64,000 bases of DNA from Fusobacterium varium. GTDB taxonomy: Bacteria; Fusobacteriota; Fusobacteriia; Fusobacteriales; Fusobacteriaceae. Positions 3,545-46,510 of the stretch are shown here, piece by piece. The translations under genes and the position numbers were made by a program. Below the pieces are notes generated by a model, which had not been told where the DNA came from, did no database searches, and saw nothing but the letters and a program-made list of their open reading frames with translations. Numbering within the stretch: the first letter of the stretch is position 1; the number at the start of each line of letters is the position of its first letter. The stretch lies in assembly GCA_900637705.1 (NCBI GenBank), contig LR134390.1:682001-746000 (forward strand), given 5' to 3'.

Positions 3545-3572
3545 AAAGTATAAATGATAAATATAAAGAATG

Positions 3573-3710
3573 CCATCAAGAGAGATTGAGGGACTGGCCC
3601 GTTGAAATCTCAGCAACCTGCTTTTTAAGTGTGGTGCTAACTCCTGATAGATGGAATATTGGATTTAGAACTTAATCCCTTTCATCTGTCTGGTGAAAGG
3701 GATTTTTTTA
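3573..3710 (+). promoter_or_regulatory. SAM-I (S-box) riboswitch upstream of metK
   Basis: SAM-sensing leader. Aptamer 3573-3654: P1 pairs CCATC (3573-3577) with GATGG (3650-3654), and the conserved core motifs GAGGGACTGGCCC, CAGCAACC and GGTGCTAA are present. Terminator: AATCCCTTTCA (3674-3684) with TGAAAGGGATT (3694-3704), then a T run. A competing antiterminator can form between GATAGATG (3646-3653) and CATCTGTC (3683-3690); it uses the 3' side of P1 and the terminator's 5' arm. SAM binding should therefore stop transcription before metK. Confidence 0.96.
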
Positions 3711-3750: not shown

Positions 3751-4905
3751 ATGAAAAATTTAACTTATTTCACATCAGAATTTGTGTCACCTGGTCACCC
3801 AGATAAGGTATCAGATCAAATTTCAGATGCAGTAGTAGACGCATGTCTTGCTGATGATCCGAATTCAAGAGTAGCATGTGAAGTATTTTGTACAACAGGA
3901 CAAGTTGTTGTAGGAGGAGAAATTACAACTACTACTTATATAGATATTCAAGACATTGTAAGAAGCAAAATAGATGAAATTGGATACAAAGAAGGAATGG
4001 GATTTGATTCAAATTGTGGAGTACTTAGTGCTATTCATGCTCAATCACCAGACATAGCTATGGGAGTAGATATTGGAGGAGCAGGGGATCAAGGAATAAT
4101 GTTTGGAGGAGCTGTAAAAGAAACTCCAGAATTAATGCCATTGGCTCTTGTATTAGCTAGAGAGATACTAGTAAAATTAACTAAAATGACTAGAGCAAAA
4201 GAACTTCCATGGGCAAGACCAGATGCAAAATCACAAGTAACTTTAGCTTATGATGAAAATGGAAAAATAGATCATGTTGATACAGTGGTAGTATCTGTAC
4301 AACATAATCCAGATGTAACTCAGGCTCAGATTAGAGAAGAAGTAATAGAAAAAGTAATAAAACCAGTATTAAAATCATATGAGCTTAAACCAGAAGAAGT
4401 AAAACATTTCCATATTAATCCAACAGGAAGATTTGTAATTGGAGGACCACATGGAGATACAGGAGTAACAGGAAGAAAAATAATAGTAGATACATATGGA
4501 GGATTTTTCAGACATGGAGGAGGAGCTTTTTCAGGAAAGGATCCTTCAAAAGTAGATAGATCAGCAGCATATGCAGCAAGATGGGTAGCAAAAAATATAG
4601 TAGCAGCAAACTTGGCAGACAAATGTGAAATACAATTATCATATGCAATAGGAGTAGTAGAACCAACATCAGTAAAAGTTGATACATTTGGAACAGGAAA
4701 AGTAGATGAATATGCTTTAGCAGAAGCAGTAAAAAAAGTATTTGATTTAACACCGAGAGGAATAGAAAGAGCACTAGAATTAAGAAGTGGAAAATTTAAA
4801 TATCAAGACTTGGCAGCATTTGGACATATAGGAAGGACAGATTTAGATCTTCCATGGGAAAAAATTGACAAAGTAGAAGAATTAAAAAAAGTTTTAAATA
4901 AATAA
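3751..4905 (+). CDS. metK: S-adenosylmethionine synthetase
   Basis: Makes SAM from methionine and ATP in the cytoplasm. At 384 aa it has normal length. Family motifs are [21 protein letters not shown] near the start, [13 protein letters not shown] near residue 110, [12 protein letters not shown] near residue 235 and [19 protein letters not shown] near residue 255. The start ATG follows AAGGAGG by 6 nt. The gene sits under a SAM-I riboswitch, so its product should repress it. A nucleosidase that acts on SAM by-products follows after a terminator hairpin. Confidence 0.98.
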
Positions 4906-9285: not shown

Positions 9286-12200
9286 TTACAAACTAAAATA
9301 AAAACTTTTTGGATTTGAAATATAAATACCACATACAGTACTCAATGGCAACATAGCATAATTACTAGTAAGTGAGGCACCTGTTTTTTCTCCATCAACG
9401 ATTTCAAAAATAGTTTTTTTGATGGAATGATCTGGAATTGATGGATAGCCTATAGCAGGTCTGATATTAGGTATCCAAATATTTTTTTCTTTCAAATAAC
9501 TTTCTAAAAATTCAGAAGCAGCCTCTGCGATTCTTGTGAGAAGAATATTTTCCATTATACTCATATAATTATCTTGAAGGAATAAAGAACTAGTTACTGA
9601 AATAACAAAAGCTCCTATAAAATCTTTTTTGTTGAAAAAATCGCTTATTCCAATATCTTTATTTTTTATTTTTCCTCTTGTAAAAGATATACTCCAGCTT
9701 TTATCTCCATCATTTATTGTTAAGGTATCTGAATTTTTACACATGGAAAAATTCCAAATGAACATCTTATTTTTATATTATTTTCTTTCATTTTATCGAA
9801 AATATGTTTAGCATCACCTAATGTCTGTTCTTCTAAAGGAGTATTTTTAACTTTCATATTATGTAAAAGAAAATTCCAATTGATATATTTTTCAATTCTT
9901 TCAAGAGTAAATTCTAGATACTGTTTTCCTAATTGATTTGGAAGTACAATTTCTGAAGAAAAGTTATCTTTTAAACAGATTTCTTTTTCAGAATTTTCTT
10001 TTTTAGTATTTAGATATATGCTGCAAAGGTTTTCAAGCTCTTTTGTTTTTTCTTCCATAAATACTTCTTTATCACCATAGATAAGTTTATTTATCATTGT
10101 GAGAGTATCCAAAGCATCTGTAGTATGAAAAGTCCTTTTTTTATAAAAGGGTTCTAATTTAACAGCAGTATGCAATTTCGATGTAGCTGCTCCTGCCACA
10201 AGAACAGGAATAGATATTTTATTCTCATTTAAAAGGGATAAAGTTTTTTCCATTTCTTTTAATGAAGGACTGATAAGACCACTTAATGTAATAATATCTA
10301 CACTGTTTTTTATAGCTTCTTCTAATATTTTTTCTTTACTTACCATAACTCCTAAATCTATTACTTCATAACCATTACACTTTAAAACTGTTCCAGCAAT
10401 ATTTTTACCTATATCATGGACATCTCCTTCAACAGTGGCCATAAGAATTTTACCTTTTATTCTTATATCGGCTTTTACTTTCATGTGAGGTTTGAGAATA
10501 TCCACAGCCTTATTCATAACACTTGCTGATCTTATAAGCTGTGGAAGATATAGTTCACCTTTTTCAAAAAGAATACCTATTTTATCCATACCTTTCATTA
10601 AGATATTTTGTATTATATCCAATGGAGTCATATTTTTTAGAGCAGTATTTATATCTGTGTCAAAAGTTGTACTTCCCCCATAAATAAGAGCTCTTTCTAT
10701 TCTATCTTTTAAAGATTCAAAATCATTATTTATCATTTTATTAGTGGAAGAACTATTAGGTTTTAAGTTAACAGAAGCATTTTTTAATTTTGCAGCAAGT
10801 TCTAATATAGAATCAAGAGATTCTGTATTTCCATTTATCAATGCTAAAATTATATCCCTTTCATCTGAAGTAAGCTGGGGTGCTTTTTCACCAGGATTCA
10901 TTATAGCAAAATTCATTCCTTTTTCTTTTGCAGCTTCAATAAAAAGAGAATGTATAGCTGCTCTCAATGAATTATTTCCTCTAAAAGCAAAAGATAAGTT
11001 GCTAAGTCCACCACTAATACCACAATATGAAAGATTTTCCTTTAGCCATTGAATTGTTTTTAAAAAATTTAATCCATTGTATCTATCATCTTTGCTTCCA
11101 GTACCAATAGCAAGTATATTTGGATCAAAAATTATATCTGAGTCAGAAAAGTTTTCTTCTTTTAATAATTTGTATGAACGATTACAGATTTCTATTTTTC
11201 TTTCAAAAGATATTCCCTGCCCTTTTTCATCAAAAGCCATAACTACTACAGCAGCCCCATATTTTTTTATTATTCTGGCTTTTTTTCTGAAGGATTCCTC
11301 ACCTTCTTTTAGAGAAATAGAATTTACTATTGATTTTCCAGCTATATTCTTTAAAGCAGTTTCAATAGTGAGAAAATCTGATGAATCTATCATTATAGGA
11401 ACTTTTGAAACTATTGGATCATTTTGGATTATTCTTAAGAACTTTTCCATTTCTTCGTGGGGTATTAATAATCCATCATCAAGATTGATATCTAAAACAG
11501 CAGCTCCTTTTTCTATTTGTAAGCGAGCAATTTCTAAAGCTTTTATATAATTTTTTTCTTCAATCAATGTTTTAAATATTTTAGAACCAGCTACATTATT
11601 TCTTTCACCAATTACTGTGAATTTATTATTGAAATTATATATTTCATTTCCAGATAAAAAACATTTATTTTCTTTAACAATAATAGGTCTGGGTTCTTTA
11701 TTTTTTACTAAATCAGCTATTGCTTTGATATGTGAAAAATGTGTTCCACAACATCCACCTAGAATATTCACTTGTTTTTTATCTACTAATTCTTTTAAAT
11801 ATCCAGTTGTTATTTCAGGAGTTTCTTCATATTCACCATTTTCATTAGGAAGTCCAGCATTTGGATACAATGAAATATATTTATCTGTAAAAGCAGCTAT
11901 TTTTTTATCATTGGAATAAGGTCTTTAGCTCCAAAGGAACAATTAAGTCCAAAGGAAATGATAGAAGGTCTATCTAGAGCAACAATTAATGATTCTATGC
12001 TTTGTCCTGAAAAGATTTTTCCTTGTTTATTTACAGTTGCAGAAATCATAATTGGAAGTTGAATATTTTTCTTTTCAAAAAGCTCTTCAGCAGCTATAAG
12101 TGCAGCTTTAGCATTTAACCCATCAAATATAGTTTCTATCAATATACAGTCAGCACCACCATCTATGACACCTTCTATCTGTTCGGAATAGATATTTTTC

Positions 12201-12622
12201 ATTTGATCAAAATTAAGTTCTCTTTCATAAGGATTATCTCCAACTGGAAGGGAAAGACTTTTACTTGTGGGACCAATAGAACCAGCAACATATATTTTTT
12301 TTCCAGAAGTTTTATAGAAATTATCTGCTATTTCCCTAGCTAATTCAGCTCCTTTTTTTGAAAGTGTATAGGACATATCTTCTATTCCATAATCTTTTAG
12401 AGATATTCTGTTACAATTAAATGAGTTAGTTTCAATGATATCAGCTCCAGCTTTTATATAACCAGTATGTATTTCTTTAATAATATCAGGTCTTGAAATA
12501 TTTAGAATTTCATTACACCCCTTTTTTCCTTGAAAATCAATCTCTGAAAGGTTATATTTTTGAATAGCTGTTCCTGTAGCCCCATCTAATACCAGTATTC
12601 TTTTTTTTAGTTCGTTTATCAT
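9286..12622 (-). CDS. metH: Cobalamin-dependent methionine synthase, interrupted by two frameshifts
   Basis: Transfers a methyl group from methyltetrahydrofolate to homocysteine through cobalamin. Domains in order: homocysteine-binding (ILVLDGATGTAIQ at the start; zinc cysteines in GLNCSFG and LGGCCGTH), pterin-binding (NVAGSKIF onward), cap plus B12-binding with the GDVHDIGKNI motif, and a C-terminal activation domain (RPAIGYPSIPDH). One-base deficits break the frame at the A7 run 11900-11906 and the A5 run 9734-9738 (coding-strand A). Restoring one A at each gives one 1112-residue protein, a normal MetH length, and restores MIKKIAAFTDKY and FPCVKNSD. The start overlaps the metF stop (TAATG). 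Sequencing error is the likely cause; decay is the alternative. Confidence 0.9.
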
Positions 12623-13503
12623 TATCTGTTACCTCCAGAAATTTCTCTTATATGTGCAATATTTGCCATTATTTTTTTAGCTGTATCTACTTTATTCATA
12701 GTATACAAATGTATTCCATCAATATCAGATGTTATTAAATCTATAATCTGTTCAGTGGCATATGCAGTTCCAGCTTCTTTTAATGCTTGAGTATTATTTT
12801 CATATTTATTTAATATCTTTTGAAATTTTTCTGGAATACTGCATCCACACATTGAAGTTATTTTTCTTATTTGTTTTGCATTTGTGACAGGCATTATACC
12901 TGCAACTAATGGTATATTTATTTGAAGCTTATTTAACTTATCCCTAAAACGATAAAAAGATTCATTGTCAAAAAATATTTGTGAAATTAAGAAGTCAGTT
13001 CCAGAATCTACTTTTCTTTTTAGATTAAAAAGATCAAGAAGATCATTTGTTTCTAGGTGACCTTCTGGATAATATGCTCCACCTATTGAAAATTCTCTTT
13101 TTTCTTTAACATAAGAAATAAGATCTTGTGCATATTTAAAATCTCCTTCTCCTATAGGAGTAGAATCTTTAGGCTTATCTCCTCTTAAAGCAAGGATATT
13201 TTCTATATTATTGGCTCTTAATTGTTTTAATATATCATCAATTTCATTTTTTTTAGCTCCCAAACATGTGAGATGTGCTAAAGCTTCTATTTTATTATTA
13301 TTTTTAATTTTTGAAGCAATTTCTACTGTATTTCCTCGGGTAGCCCCACCAGCTCCATATGTGACACTAATGAAGTCAGGTTGTAATTTTGCAAGTTCAT
13401 CAATAGAAGAATAAACATCTTCCAAAGAATATATACTATTTGGTGGAAATACTTCAAAGGATACAATTGTTTTTTTTCTTTTAAATAATTCTGAAATTTT
13501 CAT
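12622..13503 (-). CDS. metF: Methylenetetrahydrofolate reductase
   Basis: Reduces 5,10-methylene- to 5-methyltetrahydrofolate, the methyl donor for MetH. It is a 293-aa FAD-dependent TIM barrel with VSFEVFPPNS near residue 14 (catalytic glutamate), FISVTYGAGGATRGNT near residue 44, ALRGDKPKD near residue 108 and GGAYYPEGH near residue 141. The start ATG follows an AGGAGA-type site. It is the first gene after the minus-strand SAM-I riboswitch and overlaps metH by one base, so the two should be co-translated and shut off together by SAM. Confidence 0.95.
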   Translation of the reverse strand: MKISELFKRKKTIVSFEVFPPNSIYSLEDVYSSIDELAKLQPDFISVTYGAGGATRGNTVEIASKIKNNNKIEALAHLTCLGAKKNEIDDILKQLRANNIENILALRGDKPKDSTPIGEGDFKYAQDLISYVKEKREFSIGGAYYPEGHLETNDLLDLFNLKRKVDSGTDFLISQIFFDNESFYRFRDKLNKLQINIPLVAGIMPVTNAKQIRKITSMCGCSIPEKFQKILNKYENNTQALKEAGTAYATEQIIDLITSDIDGIHLYTMNKVDTAKKIMANIAHIREISGGNR

Positions 13504-13529: not shown

Positions 13530-13670
13530 AAAAAAAGCTTTTTCCACCTGATAGATGAAAAAAGCTTAAAATTTTAGAATTTAAACCATCTATCAGGAAT
13601 TAGCACCACACTTAAAAGCAGGTTGCTGAGATATCAAAGGGCCTGTCCCTCCATCTCTCTCTATGGATTT
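13530..13670 (-). promoter_or_regulatory. SAM-I (S-box) riboswitch upstream of metF-metH
   Basis: Read on the minus strand: the aptamer spans 13670-13582, with P1 formed by AAATCCAT and ATGGTTTA, and core motifs GAGGGACAGGCCC, CAGCAACC and GGTGCTAA. The terminator hairpin (about 13568-13538) has an AAGCTTTTTTC / GAAAAAGCTT stem and a T run. A perfect 10-bp antiterminator is available between CTGATAGATG (13597-13588) and CATCTATCAG (13557-13548). The architecture matches the metK leader. Confidence 0.96.
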
Positions 13671-34966: not shown

Positions 34967-35842
34967 ATGGGAGGAAAATTAAAAAACATAAGTGCAATGC
35001 TGATATTTGGAACAATAGGAATATTTGTAAAAAATATAGAATTAGCTTCCAGTGAAATAGCTTTGCTAAGAGGAATAATAGGAGGAATTGTTCTTATTAT
35101 TGTTTCTATTTTGGTAAAAAATAAAATATCTTTTAAAGATATAAAATCTAATCTTCTACTTCTTTTATTATCAGGAGGAGCTATTGGATTAAACTGGATA
35201 TTTCTGTTTCAAGCATATAAATATACAACTATTTCTAATGCTACATTGAGTTACTATTTTGCTCCAGTTTTTGTTATGCTTCTTTCACCAGTTATATTAA
35301 AGGAAAAACTAACTGCAAAGAAAATATTTTGTGTTGTATGTGCAATGCTGGGAATGATATGTATAGTAGGAAATAGTAATGGTGGAGCAGAAGGAAGAAA
35401 TGATTTTCTAGGTATAGTCTATGGACTCACAGCAGCAGCTTTTTATGCCAGTGTTATACTTATGAATAAATTTTTAAAAAATTTAAAAAGTCTTGAAACA
35501 ACTTACATACAATTAATTTTAGCAGCAGTTGTACTTATGCCTTATGTATTCACTGTTGAAGGATTTAATATTTTCAGAATTCCTGCATCTTCAATACCAT
35601 ATATACTGATATTGGGAATGGTTCATACTGGACTTGCTTATTTGTTATATTTTTCATCTCTGAAAGAATTAAAAGGTCAGACTATAGCAGTTCTAAGTTA
35701 TATAGATCCCATATCTGCTGTAATAATTTCAGCTATATTTTTAAGGGAAAAAATGGGATTACTTCAGATAGCAGGTGGAATTTTAATTTTAGGTTCCACA
35801 TTTGTAAGTGAACTTACAAAAAACAAAGGGGGGAATAAATGA
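34967..35842 (+). CDS. EamA/DMT-family exporter
   Basis: Ten predicted membrane segments in two EamA repeats (residues about 5-140 and 150-290), 291 aa, inner membrane. The opening SAMLIFGTIGIFVKNI and the late LSYIDPISAVIISAIFLREKM are typical of the drug/metabolite transporter superfamily. The substrate is unknown. ATG 34967 follows GAGGGGGAAG. The stop overlaps the next gene's start (ATGA). Confidence 0.88.
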   Translation: MGGKLKNISAMLIFGTIGIFVKNIELASSEIALLRGIIGGIVLIIVSILVKNKISFKDIKSNLLLLLLSGGAIGLNWIFLFQAYKYTTISNATLSYYFAPVFVMLLSPVILKEKLTAKKIFCVVCAMLGMICIVGNSNGGAEGRNDFLGIVYGLTAAAFYASVILMNKFLKNLKSLETTYIQLILAAVVLMPYVFTVEGFNIFRIPASSIPYILILGMVHTGLAYLLYFSSLKELKGQTIAVLSYIDPISAVIISAIFLREKMGLLQIAGGILILGSTFVSELTKNKGGNK

Positions 35843-36440
35843 GAATTTTATTTATAGGAAATAGTCATACTTATTTTAATGATATGCCGCATATTTTCAA
35901 GATGATATGTCAAGAAAATAATATTGATACAGAAGTAACAATGATAGCACATGGTTATAAAGGGTTGGATTTCCATAAAGATGAACCTGAAGTTAGATTT
36001 AATATATTTTATGGAAATTATGATTATGTTGTGCTTCAACATCTTCAAAATGGGTTTGATGAAAAAGTTCTTAGAAGTTCTGTTGAAGCAATTAACAAAT
36101 TTATAAAAATGGCTGGTTCAAAAGCTATATTATATATGCCATGGACTATAAAAAAGAAGAAAATAAACAGAAAGCTATGTCAGAGGCTTATCTTAATTTA
36201 GGTTTAAAATTAAATATAGCTGTAGCTCCTGTTGGTATAGTATGGTGGAATTTTAAGAAAAAATATTCTGAAATTGAATTATATTTTAATGATAATGAAC
36301 ATGCTTCTGAAATGGGATCAACTTTAGCTGCTTATACTATTTTCAATACTATATTTAATAAAAAAGCAGCATGTAAAACAGAAATATGTGTAGATATGGT
36401 TGATGAGACATATAAAGTAATAGAGGAATTAAAAAAATAA
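35839..36440 (+). CDS. SGNH/GDSL-like hydrolase (one frameshift)
   Basis: Begins with the SGNH block I motif FIGNSHTYFNDMP and ends with NDNEHASEMGS, an Asp/His-type block V, so an esterase or deacylase fold is likely (DUF4886-like). The frame breaks at the A6 run 36150-36155; one more A gives MPWTIKKEENKQKAMSEAY and a 200-residue protein. Starts in the last four bases of the transporter gene, so the two are translationally coupled. No signal peptide. The substrate is unknown. Confidence 0.75.
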
Positions 36441-37302: not shown

Positions 37303-38471
37303 CTATTTGTTGTTTGATAAATAATTTAAAGCAAATTGAGCATATAATGCAGTACCAACTTCAAGCATATCTTCATCTATATCAAATTTTTCATGGTGAT
37401 GAGGAAAATCACTTCCTTTTTCTTTATTTCCAGTTCCAAGTTTTACCATAACTCCAGGAACTATATTAGAAAAGAATGAGAAATCTTCTCCTCCAGTAGA
37501 AGGAGGAACAGTAACAACATTTTCTTTTCCTACAAGAGAAGCAGCTGTTTCTCTTGCTAAAGCAGCACAGTTATCATCATTGATAGTTGGTCCGACTCCC
37601 TCTGTAAATTCCACCTCAGCAGTAGCTCTGTAAGCTTCAGCTGTAGATTTAGCTATTCTTGTTATAGAAGTGAAGAAATTTTTTCTGACTTCTGGACTGT
37701 AACATCTAGTAGTCCCAGTCAATACAGCAGTAGGAGCAATTACATTAAATCTTGTTCCAGATTTAATTTCTCCAACAGTGAGTACAGCAGGATCAAAAGG
37801 AGAATATTCTCTGCTGATTACAGATTGAAGGTTCATAACAATAGCAGAACCTACTACAACAGCATCTACACATTGTTCAGGTCTTGCTCCATGTCCCCCT
37901 TTACCTGTTACAGTTATTTTAAACATATCCCCTGAGGCCATTCTTGCACCACTGTCAGCAGATATCTGTCCAGAAGGAACATCTGATGAAACATGAATAC
38001 CCATGATAGCATCTACACCTTCCATAACTCCAGCAGCTATCATTTTTTTAGCTCCAAGTACAACTTCCTCTCCTGGCTGGAAAAAAAGTTTAACAGTACC
38101 ATTTATTTCATCTTTCATTCTATTTAAAATCTTGGCAGCTCCGAGAAGCATAGCACCATGAGAATCATGTCCACATGCATGCATTAATCCATGCACTTTA
38201 GAAGCATATTCTTTTCCAGTCTGTTCAATAACAGCTAGAGCATCAATATCCCCTCTCAATGCAACAGTTTTTCCTGAATGGGCACCACGTATTGTAGCAA
38301 CTACTCCTGTATCAGCTACAATTTCACATTCTATTCCATCTTTTTCCAGTTCATTTTTTATTTTTTAGAAGTTTCATATTCTTGAAGACTTGGTTCTGGA
38401 TTCATATGAAACTCTCTTCTCATATTTATTACATAATCTTTGTACTCTTTTGCTAATTCTTGTGATTTCAT
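37303..38471 (-). CDS. M20 family amidohydrolase, module 1 (one frameshift)
   Basis: Zinc amidohydrolase of the aminoacylase/HipO/AbgB group, which hydrolyses N-acyl amino acids or small peptides. Motifs: LRGDIDALAV, MHACGHDSHGAMLLGAA (metal ligands), FFQPGEEVVLGAKKM, TGKGGHGARPE and a C-terminal FPHHHEKFDIDED. The first 40 residues are in another frame; one more A in the A6 run 38361-38366 restores ETSKKIKNELEKDGIE and a 389-residue protein. ATG 38471 follows an AGGGGGAAAC site. It is the last of three tandem copies and follows its own peptide-binding protein gene. Confidence 0.88.
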
Positions 38472-38543: not shown

Positions 38544-40091
38544 TTATTTTTCTCTTAATACAAAGGCATTAGAGATATCTATATATCCAGTTTTTTTCAT
38601 GATAAGTCCCTCTACATTTTTATTCATTCCCAAGTTAAGTTTAGGAAATACTAAAGTATAATGAGGAAGATCTCTTTGAAGAATATCCTGTACATGTTTG
38701 TATAAAAGATTTCTTTCATCTTCATTTACAGAATTTCTAGCTCTGTCTAAAAGTTCATCAGCTTCCTTAGATACATAGTTGCTTCTGTTAGCTGAACCAT
38801 TTCTTTGTGAAGAATGAAACATTGGATACAAAGCTGCATCAGCATCTCCAGAAGATACATTCCAAGAGAAAAGGTAAAGCTGTTTGTTATGTTCTAATGT
38901 TTTTGAAAGGTAAGTTCCCCATTCAAATACTTCTATTTCAACGTTTATTCCAAGAGCTTTTAATTGATCCTGAATGATAACACACATATCAACTCTTGTA
39001 GATTCATCATTTACCCATAATTTTATGTTAAATCCATCTGGGTATCCAGCTTCTTTTAAAAGCTCCTTAGCTTTCTCTATATTCACTTCATAGATATTAG
39101 AGTCAGGATTGTATCCAGCTACTACAGTAGGAAGTGTTGAATTAGCTGGAACAGCAGCTCCTCTGAATACAGCATCAGCAAGGACTCTGTTGTCTACAGC
39201 ATATGCTATGGCTTGTCTTACTCTTATATCAGCAAATAGTGGATTTGTTTGATCAAAGGCAAGATATAAACTTGAAGGTGCTTCCACTTCTACTAATTCA
39301 AGTTTTTTATGATTCATAACAGCTTCTCTATCCATGATACCAATATCAAAAGCTACATCTATTTCCCCAGTTTCAAGAGATATCATTCTGTTGCTTACTT
39401 CAGGAATATTTCTGAAAATTATATTTTTTATTTTTGATTCACCTTTCCAATTTTCAGGAAATGATTCAAGAATTATTCTATCTCCAGTTATCCATTCTTT
39501 AAATTTATGCTGTCCAGTTCCAACTGGATTTTTAAAAACATCTTCTCCAGCTTCTACAGCAGCTCTTTTATTGATAATAGAACCATTTGTAGTAGCTAAA
39601 TGTTTTAATAAAGGTCCGAAAGGTTCTTTTGTAGTAACCTTTATAGTATTTTCATCAATAATAGCAACCTCTTTTATGGGATTAAAAAGATATGAAGCCT
39701 GTGGAGAAGCTATTGCTCTGTCTAAAGAATATTTCACATCTTCAGAAGTAAGGATATCTCCATTATGGAATTTTACTCCTTTTCTCAAATGAAATATCAT
39801 ACTATAATCATCAACTCTTTCCCATTTTTCAGCAAGTCCAGGTTGAATATTAAGATTTTCATCCATAATAGTAAGAGTATCAAATATCATTTGCATAACT
39901 TTGTTTGAAACAGTATCAATACTTTTTTGTGGATCAAGAGTTTTTGCATCTGATTTTTGAGCTATGACAAGAGTTTCTTTTAAAGCAGTATCATTACCAG
40001 TCTTTTTTTCAGAAGTTACAGTTTTTCCAAATCCAACTAATACCAGTATCGTAAGTATTAATCCTAAAGTTTTTAAAATTTTCTTGTTCAT
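38544..40091 (-). CDS. Peptide-type ABC substrate-binding protein, module 1
   Basis: 515 aa, SBP family 5 (OppA/DppA). Signal peptide of about 25 residues with no lipobox cysteine, so probably free in the periplasm. Body motifs: SDAKTLDPQKSIDTVSNKV, AEKWERVDDYSMIFHLRKGVKFHNGD and LLKEAGYPDGFN. Captures peptides or related ligands for an ABC permease; none is encoded in this window. It is preceded by an attenuator-like leader (promoter 40435, small ORF 40195-40392, terminator 40134) and followed by amidohydrolase 1 after 72 bp. Confidence 0.93.
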   Translation of the reverse strand: MNKKILKTLGLILTILVLVGFGKTVTSEKKTGNDTALKETLVIAQKSDAKTLDPQKSIDTVSNKVMQMIFDTLTIMDENLNIQPGLAEKWERVDDYSMIFHLRKGVKFHNGDILTSEDVKYSLDRAIASPQASYLFNPIKEVAIIDENTIKVTTKEPFGPLLKHLATTNGSIINKRAAVEAGEDVFKNPVGTGQHKFKEWITGDRIILESFPENWKGESKIKNIIFRNIPEVSNRMISLETGEIDVAFDIGIMDREAVMNHKKLELVEVEAPSSLYLAFDQTNPLFADIRVRQAIAYAVDNRVLADAVFRGAAVPANSTLPTVVAGYNPDSNIYEVNIEKAKELLKEAGYPDGFNIKLWVNDESTRVDMCVIIQDQLKALGINVEIEVFEWGTYLSKTLEHNKQLYLFSWNVSSGDADAALYPMFHSSQRNGSANRSNYVSKEADELLDRARNSVNEDERNLLYKHVQDILQRDLPHYTLVFPKLNLGMNKNVEGLIMKKTGYIDISNAFVLREK

Positions 40092-40133: not shown

Positions 40134-40162
40134 AAAAAAAAGCAGCCCAGTCAGGCTGCTTT
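40134..40162 (-). terminator. Leader terminator before binding-protein gene 1
   Basis: Minus strand: AAAGCAGCC / GGCTGCTTT stem with a 6-nt loop and eight T. It lies inside the 5' leader, 42 bp before ATG 40091. Stem and following ATACAAAT match the hairpin at 46216-46242. Confidence 0.88.
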
Positions 40163-40194
40163 AAATATACTTTCATTTATCCTAAAATAATCAT

Positions 40195-40392
40195 TTATTC
40201 AATTATAACTAATAAGGTTTTCCTATTAATTACAACTGACATCAATAGGAACACAAAAGTTGTTAAAACTATGGAAACTAAACCTAACATCAGAGATAAT
40301 TGTATATATATTTCTTTTAAAGTAAAAGTAAAAAAGTAGTAAAAGTAATAAAAATATACAAATGCTCTAAATTCTAAGTTAGTTCTTAACAT
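40195..40392 (-). CDS. Small hydrophobic leader ORF, Phe/Tyr-rich
   Basis: 65 aa from an ATG 7 nt after AAAGGAGG (an in-frame TTG at 40413 precedes that site). Residues 11-21 read FVYFYYFYYFF: ten of eleven are Phe or Tyr. A membrane-like segment follows (QLSLMLGLVSIVLTTFVFLLM) and the tail is NRKTLLVIIE. It has its own promoter upstream and an intrinsic terminator 32 bp after its stop, then the binding-protein gene. This could be an attenuation leader peptide sensing aromatic aminoacyl-tRNA, or a small membrane protein of the uptake system. The family is not recognised. Confidence 0.6.
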   Translation of the reverse strand: MLRTNLEFRAFVYFYYFYYFFTFTLKEIYIQLSLMLGLVSIVLTTFVFLLMSVVINRKTLLVIIE

Positions 40393-40434
40393 ACCCTGCG
40401 TCCTCCTTTTCAAAATGATTACTTCTTGTAGAGG

Positions 40435-40463
40435 ATTGTAATACTAAAAAAACGAAAAGTCAA
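40435..40463 (-). promoter_or_regulatory. Promoter of leader ORF / binding-protein gene 1
   Basis: Minus strand: TTGACT (40463-40458), 17 bp, TACAAT (40440-40435). Starts the leader transcript about 40 bp before the small ORF. Confidence 0.7.
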
Positions 40464-40483: not shown

Positions 40484-41656
40484 TTAATCTTTATTTTTAT
40501 CTAAGAAATCAAGAGCATATTGAGCATAAAACGCTACTCCATCTACAAATACATCTTCATCTACATCAAATTTTCCATGATGATGTGGATATGTAGTACC
40601 TTTTTCTTCATTTCCTGAACCTAAATTACACATAACTCCAGGAACTATTGAAGAAAATTCAGAAAAGTCCTCTCCACCAGTTGCAGGAGGAGTTTCTATT
40701 ACATTTTCTTTTCCAACTATCTTTCCAGCTGCTTCACGAGCAATGGAAGTACAGGTATCATCATTGATAGTTATTTTTACTAGATTGGAATATTCTATTT
40801 CAGCAGTTGCTCTATATGCTTCAGCTGTAGCTTTGGCTATTCTTTCAATTGCAGCTGGCACTTTTTCTTTAAATTCTGGATTATAATATCTTACAGTTCC
40901 TTCAATAACTGCTCTGGGAGCTATAACATTGAATCTAGTTCCAGAATGAATAGATCCTATTGTTACAACTAGAGGATCGAAAGGACTGAACTCTCTGCTT
41001 ACAAGGGACTGAAGATTCATAACAACAGCAGAACCAGCAACAACAGCATCTATTGTTTTTTCAGGTTCAGCACCATGTCCTCCCTTTCCTGTAACAGTTA
41101 TTTTAAAATAATCAGCTGATGCTGTTTTTGCACCTGGATCAGCATTTATGGTTCCAGAAGGAAGTCCACTTGAAATATGCATTCCCATGACACTGTCTAC
41201 TCCCTCAAGAGCTCCCTCAGCTACCATGGCAGCAGCTCCTTTTCCAACTTCTTCACCAGGCTGAAAGAAAAATTTAACAGTTCCATTTATTTTATCTTTC
41301 ATTTCATTGAGAACCATAGCAGAACCAAGAAGCATAGCACCATGAGTATCATGTCCACAAGCATGCATAAGTCCATGTACTTTTGAAGCATATTCTTTTC
41401 CACTTTCTTCTACTACTGCAAGAGCATCAATATCTCCTCTTAAAGCTACAGTTTTACCAGGGTGATCACCTTTGATAGTTGCTATAACTCCAGTACCAGC
41501 AATACTTTTATTTTCAATACCAGCTTTATCAAGTTCCTCTCTTATTCTTTTGGAAGTATTATATTCTTTCATACTTGCTTCAGGATTCATATGAAATTCT
41601 CTTCTCATATTTATTACATAATTTTTATATTTTTCTGCCAATTTCTTAGTTTGCAT
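40484..41656 (-). CDS. M20 family amidohydrolase, module 2 (intact)
   Basis: 390 aa, the only one of the three copies without a frameshift. Motifs as in its paralogues: MRREFHMNPEASMKEYNTS, LRGDIDALAVVEE, MHACGHDTHGAMLLGSA, PGEEVGKGAAAMVAEGALEG, TGKGGHGAEPE, TGGEDFSEFSSIVPGV and YPHHHGKFDVDED. Start ATG 41656 follows GGGAGG; the TTG at 41668 overlaps the site. Follows binding-protein gene 2 after 18 bp. Expected to release amino acids from N-acyl or dipeptide substrates taken up by the partner. Confidence 0.92.
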   Translation of the reverse strand: MQTKKLAEKYKNYVINMRREFHMNPEASMKEYNTSKRIREELDKAGIENKSIAGTGVIATIKGDHPGKTVALRGDIDALAVVEESGKEYASKVHGLMHACGHDTHGAMLLGSAMVLNEMKDKINGTVKFFFQPGEEVGKGAAAMVAEGALEGVDSVMGMHISSGLPSGTINADPGAKTASADYFKITVTGKGGHGAEPEKTIDAVVAGSAVVMNLQSLVSREFSPFDPLVVTIGSIHSGTRFNVIAPRAVIEGTVRYYNPEFKEKVPAAIERIAKATAEAYRATAEIEYSNLVKITINDDTCTSIAREAAGKIVGKENVIETPPATGGEDFSEFSSIVPGVMCNLGSGNEEKGTTYPHHHGKFDVDEDVFVDGVAFYAQYALDFLDKNKD

Positions 41657-41674
41657 TTTTCCTCCCAACCAGTT

Positions 41675-43261: not shown

Positions 43262-43289
43262 TCCCAAGGGTCCCTAGAGGGACTTGGGA
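43262..43289 (-). other. Intercistronic GC-rich hairpin without T tract
   Basis: Minus strand: TCCCAAG ... CTTGGGA (outer) and TCCCT ... AGGGA (inner) around the TAG stop of amidohydrolase 3. No T run follows, so it looks more like an mRNA processing or stability element than a terminator. Confidence 0.6.
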
Positions 43290-44451
43290 TTCTTCTTTAA
43301 ATAGTCAATAGCATATTGTGCATAGAATGCAACTCCATAAACAAAGGCATCTTCATCTACATCAAATTTTCCATGATGATGAGGATAAGTTATTCCTTTT
43401 TCCACATTTCCAGCTCCAAGTCTAGTCATAACTCCTGGAACTATTGAAGAAAACTCAGAAAATCTTCTCCACCTGTACCAGCAGGAGTATGTATAACATT
43501 TTCTTTTCCAACTATTTTAGCAGCTGATTCCTGAGCAAGTTCAGCACAGACATCATCATTGATAGTAGGTTTTACAAGACTTGAATATTCCATTTCAGCA
43601 GTTGCTCTATATGCTTCAGCTGTTGATTTTGCAATTCTTTCAATAGCATCAGCAATAATTTTTTTATATTCAGGTTTATAATATCTTACAGTTCCTTCCA
43701 ATACAGCAGTAGGAGCTATAACATTGAATCTAGTTCCAGATTTTATTGAACCAGTAGTTACTACAACAGGGTCAAATGGAGAAAGCTCCCTGCTTACTAT
43801 TGATTGAAGATTCATAACAGTAGCAGCTCCAACAACAACAGCGTCTATACATTGTTCAGGTCTTGCTCCATGTCCTCCTTTTCCTGTAATAGTTACTTTA
43901 AAAGAATCAGCAGAAGCCATTCTAGGACCTGGATCAGCATTTATAGTTCCAACAGGCATATCAGAAGATATATGTATTCCCATAACACCATCTACTCCTT
44001 CAAGAGCTCCTTCGGCTACCATAGCAGCAGCACCTTTTCCAACTTCTTCACCAGGCTGGAAGAAAAATTTAACAGTTCCTTCTATTTCATCTTTCATTTC
44101 ATTTAAGACTTTTACAGCACCAAGAAGCATAGCTCCATGAGTATCATGTCCACAGGCATGCATCATTCCATGAACTTTTGAAACATAGTTATGAGTATTT
44201 TCTTCAACAACAGCCAAAGCGTCAATATCTCCTCTAAGTGCTACAGTTTTACCAGGTTTATTACCTTTTATAGTAGCTATAACACCAGTACCAGCTATTC
44301 CCTTATATTCAACACCCATTTTTTCAAGCTCTTCTTTTATTCTTTTGCAAGTATTGTATTCCTGCATACTTACTTCAGGATTCATGTGGAATTCTCTTCT
44401 CATTTGTATGACGTAATCTTGATTTTTTTTAGCTAAATCTAAAGTTTTCAT
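43274..44451 (-). CDS. M20 family amidohydrolase, module 3 (one frameshift)
   Basis: Same family as modules 1 and 2. The break is in a short run: coding-strand T4 at 43459-43462 (GAT TTT CTG). A fifth T restores GGEDFSEFSSIVPGVM, identical in style to module 2, and the frame then runs to a TAG at 43274, 392 residues in all with YPHHHGKFDVDED. ATG 44451 follows GGGAGGAACC. The product pairs with binding protein 3. Confidence 0.9.
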
Positions 44452-44482: not shown

Positions 44483-46056
44483 TTATTTTTCATTTATAAC
44501 ATACATATTTTCAACATCTATATATCCATCATTTCTGAATATCATATTTTTTACATTTTTTCTTATGGCTACATTCAACATAGGATATACTAAAGTGTAA
44601 TGTGGAATATCTTCTTGTAATATTTCTTGAGCTTCTTGATACAATTTTGTTCTTTCTTCTTGATTAACTGAGTATCTAGCTTTATCTAAAACTTCATCTA
44701 ATTTCTCATTTTTATAGAAACTTCTGTTTCCAGATAAACCTTGTTGGCTAGAGTGAAACAAAGCATATAAAGCAGCATCTCCATCACTAGTAGAATTCCA
44801 AGAAAGCAAATATAATTGTTTATTAGGCTGAGCAGTTCTTGAAACATATGCTCCCCATTCAAATATCTTTATTTCAGCATTAATTCCAATAGCTTTTAAC
44901 TGTTCCTGCATAATCACACACATATCAGTTCTAGGACCATCATCATTAACCCATAATTCTATATTCAATCCATCTTTATATCCAGCTTCAGCCATTAATT
45001 GTTTAGCTTTTTCAATATCTTGATCATATTGTTTAGCTGGAGTGATATGAGCAGGACAAGCTTTTGGCAAAGGAGAATCAGCAGCTATTGCAGAACCTCT
45101 GAATACAGCTTCAGCTAAAACTTTAGTATCCACTGCATAAGCGATTGCCTGTCTTAATTTTTTATTTTGATATTCAGGAGTTGTCTGGTCAAATCCTAAA
45201 TACAATGAAGATGGAGAAGCAACTTCTAAAAATTCCATATCTTTATTTTTTTAACAGCTTCTTTATCCATTATTCCAATATCGAAAGCGATATCAGCTTC
45301 ACCAGTTTCCAAAGCTATCATTCTATTGCTTACTTCAGTTATAGTTCTCATAGTAATCTGTCTAACTTTTGGAGCACCTTGAAAAGCTTCATCAAAAGCT
45401 TCAACGATTATTCTGTCACCAGGTATCCATTCTTTAAATTTATATTGTCCAGTTCCTACTGGGTGTTGGAAGAAATTTTCCTCTCCAACTTCCTGCACAG
45501 CTCTTTTGCTCACTATGCACCCTTGTGTTTGAGCCAAGTTTGTCAATAAAGGACCGAAAGGTTTTTCAGTAGTAATTTTTACAGTATTTTCATCAATCAC
45601 TGTAACTTCTGTTATTGGTTTGAATAAGTAAGATGTCTGATTAGAAACTCTTGCTCTGTCTATTGAAAATTTTACATCTTCAGCAGTCATTGTATCTCCA
45701 TTGTGAAATTTTACCCCTTTTTTCAAATGGAATATAGTATTTGTATCATCAACAGCTTCCCAACTTTCTGCTAAACAAGGCTGAACATTTAAGTCTTTAT
45801 CTAATGACAACAATCCATTGAATATCAAACGAATAGTTTTGTTAGATGTTGTATCAATTGTTCTTTGTGGATCAAGTGTTTTTGCATCAGCTTTTGAAGC
45901 TATTACTATATTTTCTTTATAAGAATTAACTGTTTCAGTTTTTTTAGTTTCAACTTTTTTATCAGTAGCAATGACATTCATTCCTGTAAAAAATATAACT
46001 GCTGCAGCAACAGCTATTATTCCAATTTTTTTTATTACTTTATTTTTATTTTCCAT
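44483..46056 (-). CDS. Peptide-type ABC substrate-binding protein, module 3 (one frameshift)
   Basis: SBP family 5, with a signal peptide (KKIGIIAVAAAVIFFTGMNV). Motifs SKADAKTLDPQRTIDTTSN, ESWEAVDDTNTIFHLKKG and LMAEAGYKDGLN. The frame breaks at coding A7 run 45246-45252; one more A gives AVKKNKDMEFLEVASPSS, matching the paralogues, and 524 residues. ATG 46056 follows GGGAG, which lies inside a small overlapping ORF (46035-46178). An attenuator-like leader precedes it. First gene of the longest module transcript. Confidence 0.92.
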
Positions 46057-46215: not shown

Positions 46216-46242
46216 AAAAAAAGCAGCCTGTTAGGCTGCTTT
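46216..46242 (-). terminator. Leader terminator before binding-protein gene 3
   Basis: Minus strand: AAAGCAGCCT / AGGCTGCTTT with a 3-nt loop and seven T, within the leader about 160 bp before ATG 46056. Nearly identical to the hairpin at 40134-40162. Confidence 0.88.
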
Positions 46243-46357: not shown

Positions 46358-46510
46358 TTATATGAAGCAGTTATATATTTTAGATTCCTCAAAAAGTCGA
46401 ATAATGTTTAAATTGACCTTAACATAATTATTGGCATATGAAATTTTATTAGAACTGAGTATGAGCACTATTATACATATGACAAATATTATTATGTTAA
46501 ATAAAAACAT
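46358..46510 (-). CDS. Small hydrophobic leader ORF, module 3
   Basis: 50 aa from ATG 46510 behind GGGGGAGG, a very strong ribosome site. The first 18 residues (MFLFNIIIFVICIIVLIL) form one membrane segment; the rest is polar with NNYVKVNLNIIRLFEES. It occupies the same place as the 40195-40392 ORF: between promoter and leader terminator of a binding-protein gene. It shows no clear sequence similarity to that ORF. A small membrane protein or an attenuation leader; not decided. The rest of 46057-46606 is AT-rich leader. Confidence 0.5.
   Translation of the reverse strand: MFLFNIIIFVICIIVLILSSNKISYANNYVKVNLNIIRLFEESKIYNCFI

Follow-up and report, generated by a model that had tools for sequence, protein, structure and literature searches.

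The window, a stretch of 64,000 nucleotides from Fusobacterium varium (contig LR134390.1), carries on its minus strand a gene for an ABC transporter peptide-binding protein (38544-40091; match to the Pfam family SBP_bac_5, PF00496), located in a cluster where SBP genes alternate with genes for M20 amidohydrolases. The next gene, presumably in the same operon, encodes an M20-type amidohydrolase (37303-38259, minus strand) whose N-terminus is disrupted in the window, and an M20 paralogue at 40484-41668 belongs to PF01546. Ahead of the binding-protein gene, the initial annotation had described a promoter, a strong Shine-Dalgarno (SD) sequence, a 65-codon ORF with aromatic residues 11-21 and a terminator, and all of them, like the gene itself, were found where it had placed them on the minus strand. 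The promoter TTGACT-17-TACAAT (40435-40463) has 10 of 12 matches to the consensus, the SD sequence GGAGG (40402-40406) is kept in relatives, and AAAAGGAGG precedes the ATG at 40392. In the window reading, the leader ORF (40195-40392) has residues 11-21 FVYFYYFYYFF, a run in which Phe and Tyr codons both occur. At a distance of 32 bp from its stop codon lies an intrinsic terminator, the hairpin AAAGCAGCCTGACTGGGCTGCTTT with a 10-pair stem (40139-40162) followed by a U-run, which is also one of the matches to the family pattern discussed below (G000:C1:722136-722158).

The leader and the orthologous gene are present in three further genomes of the genus (G001, G002 and G007), with 99% identity over the first 160 nt and the promoter in an unchanged position. 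In these relatives, the TTTTTT run around codons 20-21, near 40333-40328 in the window, contains one T more, giving a 55-codon ORF whose peptide reads MLRTNLEFRAFVYFYYFYYFFYFYFKRNIYTIISDVRFSFHSFNNFCVPIDIS(R/H)N, with the end given as ...YYFFYFYFKRNIYTIISDVRFSFHSFNNFCVPIDIS.N. Thus the window does hold 65 codons, as annotated, but the second half that had been likened to a membrane helix is out of frame with all three close relatives, and past the deletion the earliest mismatches of the window with these genomes do not alter the amino acids when read in the frame of the relatives. The missing T is probably a sequencing or assembly error, judging from the other single-base frameshifts that seemingly split genes in the window (9720-12622, 35839-36440, 43274-44451, 44483-46056 and 37303-38259) and that themselves suggest assembly errors; the "membrane helix" half should therefore not be interpreted. 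In G009 (MFRTYFSFSYFVFFYFYYFMFSKKNRQCFSNARLCFNMLNFF) and G005 (MFRTYFNFKSFYFFYYLYYFFIYIKEKYDVILGLVLNYRRGII), the orthologous binding-protein genes are preceded by diverged leaders that retain the promoter (TTGACA-17-TATAAT and TTGACA-17-TAGAAT, respectively), the SD sequence, the Phe/Tyr run and the terminator. Aligning the leaders among relatives, a check proposed in the initial annotation, therefore showed an aromatic run before the same gene in all five genomes, conserved in composition and not in exact order.

Regarding the RNA, the initial annotation had reported no convincing antiterminator pairing. Folding of the leader combined with a scan for complements revealed one, together with a competing protector. 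The antiterminator is formed by GUUAGG (40288-40283, inside the leader ORF) and CCUGAC in the 5′ arm and loop of the terminator (segment 3, 40155-40150), a pairing that covaries and recurs in about 40 sister leaders. GUUAGG is part of the motif AUGUUAGG (segment 2, 40283-40290), the best complement of the terminator arm, which could pair alternately with segment 1 or segment 3. When the RNA was folded only up to the terminator loop, mimicking transcription, and without a ribosome, minimum free energy structures and pairing probabilities placed this motif in a long protector helix, P1, in which GAACUAACUUAGAAUUUAGAG (segment 1, codons 3-10, 40365-40385; also supported by a permutation test) pairs with CUCUGAUGUUAGGUUUAGUUU (40275-40295). 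With a 33-nt mask around the P site standing in for the ribosome, a crude treatment based on equilibrium folding, the predicted antiterminator probability of the window leader was 0.00 for free RNA, 0.75 for a stall at Phe8, 0.01 at Phe11 and 0.00 at the stop codon. In these simulations only the Phe8 stall released segment 2 in the window leader, while in relatives the Phe11 stall did so partly, and stalls deeper in the aromatic run allowed the protector to re-form.

The leader is not a solitary structure. A search with the terminator pattern containing a CTRAC loop yielded 43 sites, spread over 12 genomes of the genus with six of them in the window's genome, and none with the reversed control pattern; among 96 genomes of the order, the control again had no matches and most pattern matches were within the genus. 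Among the 31 non-redundant sites, 30 come after an SD-bearing leader ORF, in most cases one with many Ile/Leu/Val, Trp or Phe/Tyr codons, and the codon run fits the downstream gene in most of the roughly 40 sister leaders. Leaders of the Ile/Leu/Val class precede genes for ilvE-type branched-chain aminotransferase, livK-type binding proteins and SBF symporters, as well as the SBP/M20 cluster. Trp leaders are found before SNF/NSS symporters (the NSS genes in other species) and, in the window's genome, before another SBP gene, while the Phe/Tyr leader precedes the SBP_bac_5 gene. A Leu-rich leader with the family motif and terminator (L274, MHTNHLLLNLHILALLLLSQ...) is also present in G078, another genus of the family, followed by a gene that by eye looks like leuA. 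The window itself holds a second leader on the minus strand, with an Ile/Val/Leu-rich ORF (MFLFNIIIFVICIIVLILSSNKISYANNYVKVN..., 46358-46510) that heads the SBP/M20 cluster and is conserved in G001, G002, G007, G009 and G010. Its segment 2, AUGUUAAGG (46417-46425), pairs with UUAACAUAAU near 46500-46490, and its terminator, AAAGCAGCCTAACAGGCTGC with a U-run (46217-46242), is near-identical to that of the Phe/Tyr leader; its close relatives L132 and L133 were included in the motif and folding analyses. Beyond these genomes, a tblastn search of a collection of genome contigs with the leader protein profile gave no match, probably because the query is of low complexity. Runs of nine Phe/Tyr codons are a poor search pattern when used alone, since the base composition of some relatives makes them too frequent. 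A combined DNA pattern matched only Fusobacterium mortiferum An814 among the genome contigs, a collection that may omit records near the window, and had no match in viral contigs.

When 30 leaders were scanned for the upstream stretch most complementary to the 5′ arm and loop of the terminator, nearly all of them gave AUGUUAGG or a close variant, located 55-104 nt into the leader ORF. It is read as MLG in frame 0, as NVR-like in frame 1 and as KC-stop in frame 2, and its retention in all three frames points to selection on RNA and not on the peptide. Protector probability exceeded 0.5 in 90% of the leaders, compared to 13% of 180 dinucleotide-shuffled controls, and the full switch behaviour was predicted for 63% of leaders and 5% of shuffled controls. 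Stalls were simulated at the first four regulatory codons, one or another of which raised the antiterminator above 0.5 in 26 of 30 leaders, and with the ribosome at the stop codon it stayed below 0.2 in all 30; the stall-release simulation failed for the Trp leader L136, the Ile/Leu/Val leader L133, L218 and the Phe/Tyr leader of G009 (maximum 0.37). Taken singly, antiterminator duplexes were modestly better than shuffles (mean z of -1.5, p<=0.05 in 8 of 30). Across 41 leaders, own strands surpassed permuted strands for both the protector (z of -5.5) and the antiterminator (z of -6.9), with 0 of 20,000 permutations reaching the observed value in each case, a significance that is overstated because the leaders share ancestry. 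Coordinated variants were found as GUUAGA/UCUAAC in Trp leaders and UUUAGG/CCUAAA in G005. In the leader L212 all three strands change, from CUUAACAUAAU/AUUAUGUUAGG/CCUAAC to CUUAAUAUAAU/AUUAUAUUAGG/CCUAAU, by a C to U change in segment 1, G to A in segment 2 and C to U in segment 3, and such a triple change would be hard to explain without both pairings.

Taking all this together, the leader is very probably a ribosome-mediated attenuator that senses the charging of Phe/Tyr-tRNA and controls the peptide-binding protein gene, and probably the M20 hydrolase gene as well. Leader-peptide attenuation, as suggested in the initial annotation, is supported by the conserved aromatic run, the antiterminator and protector, their covariation and the sister leaders. 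According to the proposed mechanism, segment 1 and segment 2 (AUGUUAGG and its neighbours inside the ORF) would form the protector, and segment 2 with segment 3 the antiterminator, segment 3 otherwise entering the terminator. When Phe and Tyr are plentiful, or the leader is untranslated, the protector would keep segment 2, the terminator would form and the genes would be off. When charged tRNA is scarce, the ribosome would pause where the aromatic codons begin (at Phe8, perhaps at Phe11) and cover segment 1, leaving segment 2 free to build the antiterminator, with readthrough and expression as the outcome. It thus looks like the peptide-uptake gene is transcribed only under phenylalanine or tyrosine shortage; we infer here the sensing of Phe/Tyr, the direction of control and the substrate class of the binding protein. 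The components of an attenuator are in place: an ORF with an SD sequence and clustered codons, predicted to be translated, in the window, its orthologues and sister leaders; an intrinsic terminator between this ORF and the structural gene; and an antiterminator mutually exclusive with the terminator, through the competition of segment 2 for the terminator arm and its covariation. The release of segment 2 by a stalled ribosome is an in silico result, the protector being broken in 26 of 30 leaders, and in the window leader only at the first aromatic codon.

Alternatively, the peptide could act as a nascent-chain arrest leader of the TnaC or SpeFL type, sensing a small molecule in the ribosome tunnel. 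An [ND][VA]R tripeptide recurs in many leaders, reminiscent of the SpeFL ending, and some leaders (MYSANICWTT...) are mixed in composition. However, this tripeptide simply results from AUGUUAGG, which other leaders read as MLG or KC-stop, and codon composition tracks gene function. No conserved arrest peptide of the TnaC or SpeFL kind was found across the leader classes, whose peptides differ, and we consider this explanation very unlikely; a SpeFL/TnaC-like arrest peptide was discarded as a candidate, because the leaders read the underlying nucleotides in three different frames. It is extremely unlikely that the ORF codes for a small structural membrane protein, a functional aromatic or hydrophobic peptide with an incidental terminator. 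This doubt, raised in the initial annotation, drew on the strong SD sequence and on the helix-like second half of the window ORF, yet that half does not share the relatives' reading frame, and conservation in it concerns the RNA, in the form of helices used in three frames. Moreover, the peptide has no Pfam match, the diverged orthologues are only about 40% identical and have different C-termini while sharing composition, and sister leaders with unrelated peptides have a common terminator and motif. A translation-independent RNA element that simply overlaps the ORF, such as a T-box, a riboswitch or a protein-binding terminator, would fit the strong structure of the ribosome-free RNA and the pairing, seen by eye, of the SD region with the ORF end in Trp and Phe/Tyr leaders, but it is hardly credible given that no Rfam family, T-box included, matches, that an ORF with an SD sequence stands at 30 of 31 sites, mostly with a class-specific codon run, and that the ribosome-free RNA is predicted to be OFF.

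Ribosome-mediated attenuators were defined for the trp, his, phe, leu and ilv operons of E. coli and Salmonella (PMC1183508). The attenuator proposed here shares with them a leader ORF with regulatory codons, a protector, antiterminator and terminator made from shared strands, and readthrough predicted upon starvation. It differs in the position of segment 1, which occupies codons 3-10 and falls no later than the beginning of the run; in segment 2, most of which is within the ORF, in any frame; in its main targets, genes for uptake and peptide capture; and in having one RNA layout that serves several genes per genome with different codon runs. The E. coli pheM/pheL leaders (RF01859) likewise have a short Phe/Tyr-rich peptide ahead of a terminator, but the gene is different and there is no evident sequence relation; the score for the Rfam model Phe_leader was below its gathering threshold (28.5 vs 55 bits, E of 0.73), and at a relaxed cut-off the Rfam search returned only chance-level matches, with no fitting family. 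T-box leaders also antiterminate at low aminoacyl-tRNA, often at amino-acid transporters, but they read the tRNA directly and without translation. The T-box covariance model found no match in the leader, and a 2008 survey listed no T-boxes in its Fusobacteria/Thermotogae genomes (PMC2494555). Other uORF attenuators are given in an ncRNA survey that includes Fusobacteria, and these leaders are not described in the accessible part of it (PMC8632094). Our literature search retrieved no report of these leaders or of amino-acid attenuation in the phylum Fusobacteria, and the set of leaders in Fusobacterium and close relatives appears undescribed, while its mechanism is supported as classical ribosome-mediated attenuation applied here to uptake.

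Fusobacteria subsist on the fermentation of amino acids and peptides. It seems reasonably likely that a single reusable layout, composed of the protector, AUGUUAGG and a CCUAAC terminator with interchangeable codon runs, works as a regulon-wide starvation sensor in Fusobacterium and near relatives, choosing which peptides and amino acids are imported. In such a family, the three-strand switch of the shared RNA layout would persist while the peptide-coding content changes. The leader codon run would then name the amino acid controlling each transporter and reveal the purpose of each binding protein, a rule that would predict substrate classes for many anonymous peptide-binding proteins.

Some additional structures were noticed among the leaders and elsewhere in the window. 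In leaders L218, L220, L223 and L240, which precede livK-type genes and have the common motif and terminator, the composition is mixed (MYSANICWTTVYGLSLSLNNLSQFSYTLLKC and the like). Two short Trp leaders, L168 and L171, end in WWWSF-stop before NSS-like genes, and their terminator sequence differs from the common one, so that Trp control here would do without the shared hairpin. In the window leader the bases adjacent to the SD sequence (40411-40396) show complementarity to the ORF end, as do those of the Trp leaders L158-L166 (GUUAUCAA/UUGAUAAC), which could possibly provide feedback on leader translation. Finally, two SAM riboswitches (Rfam RF00162) are located in the window, one at 3570-3657 on the plus strand, upstream of a gene starting at 3751 (plus strand), and the other at 13583-13669 on the minus strand, upstream of a gene starting at 13503 (minus strand).
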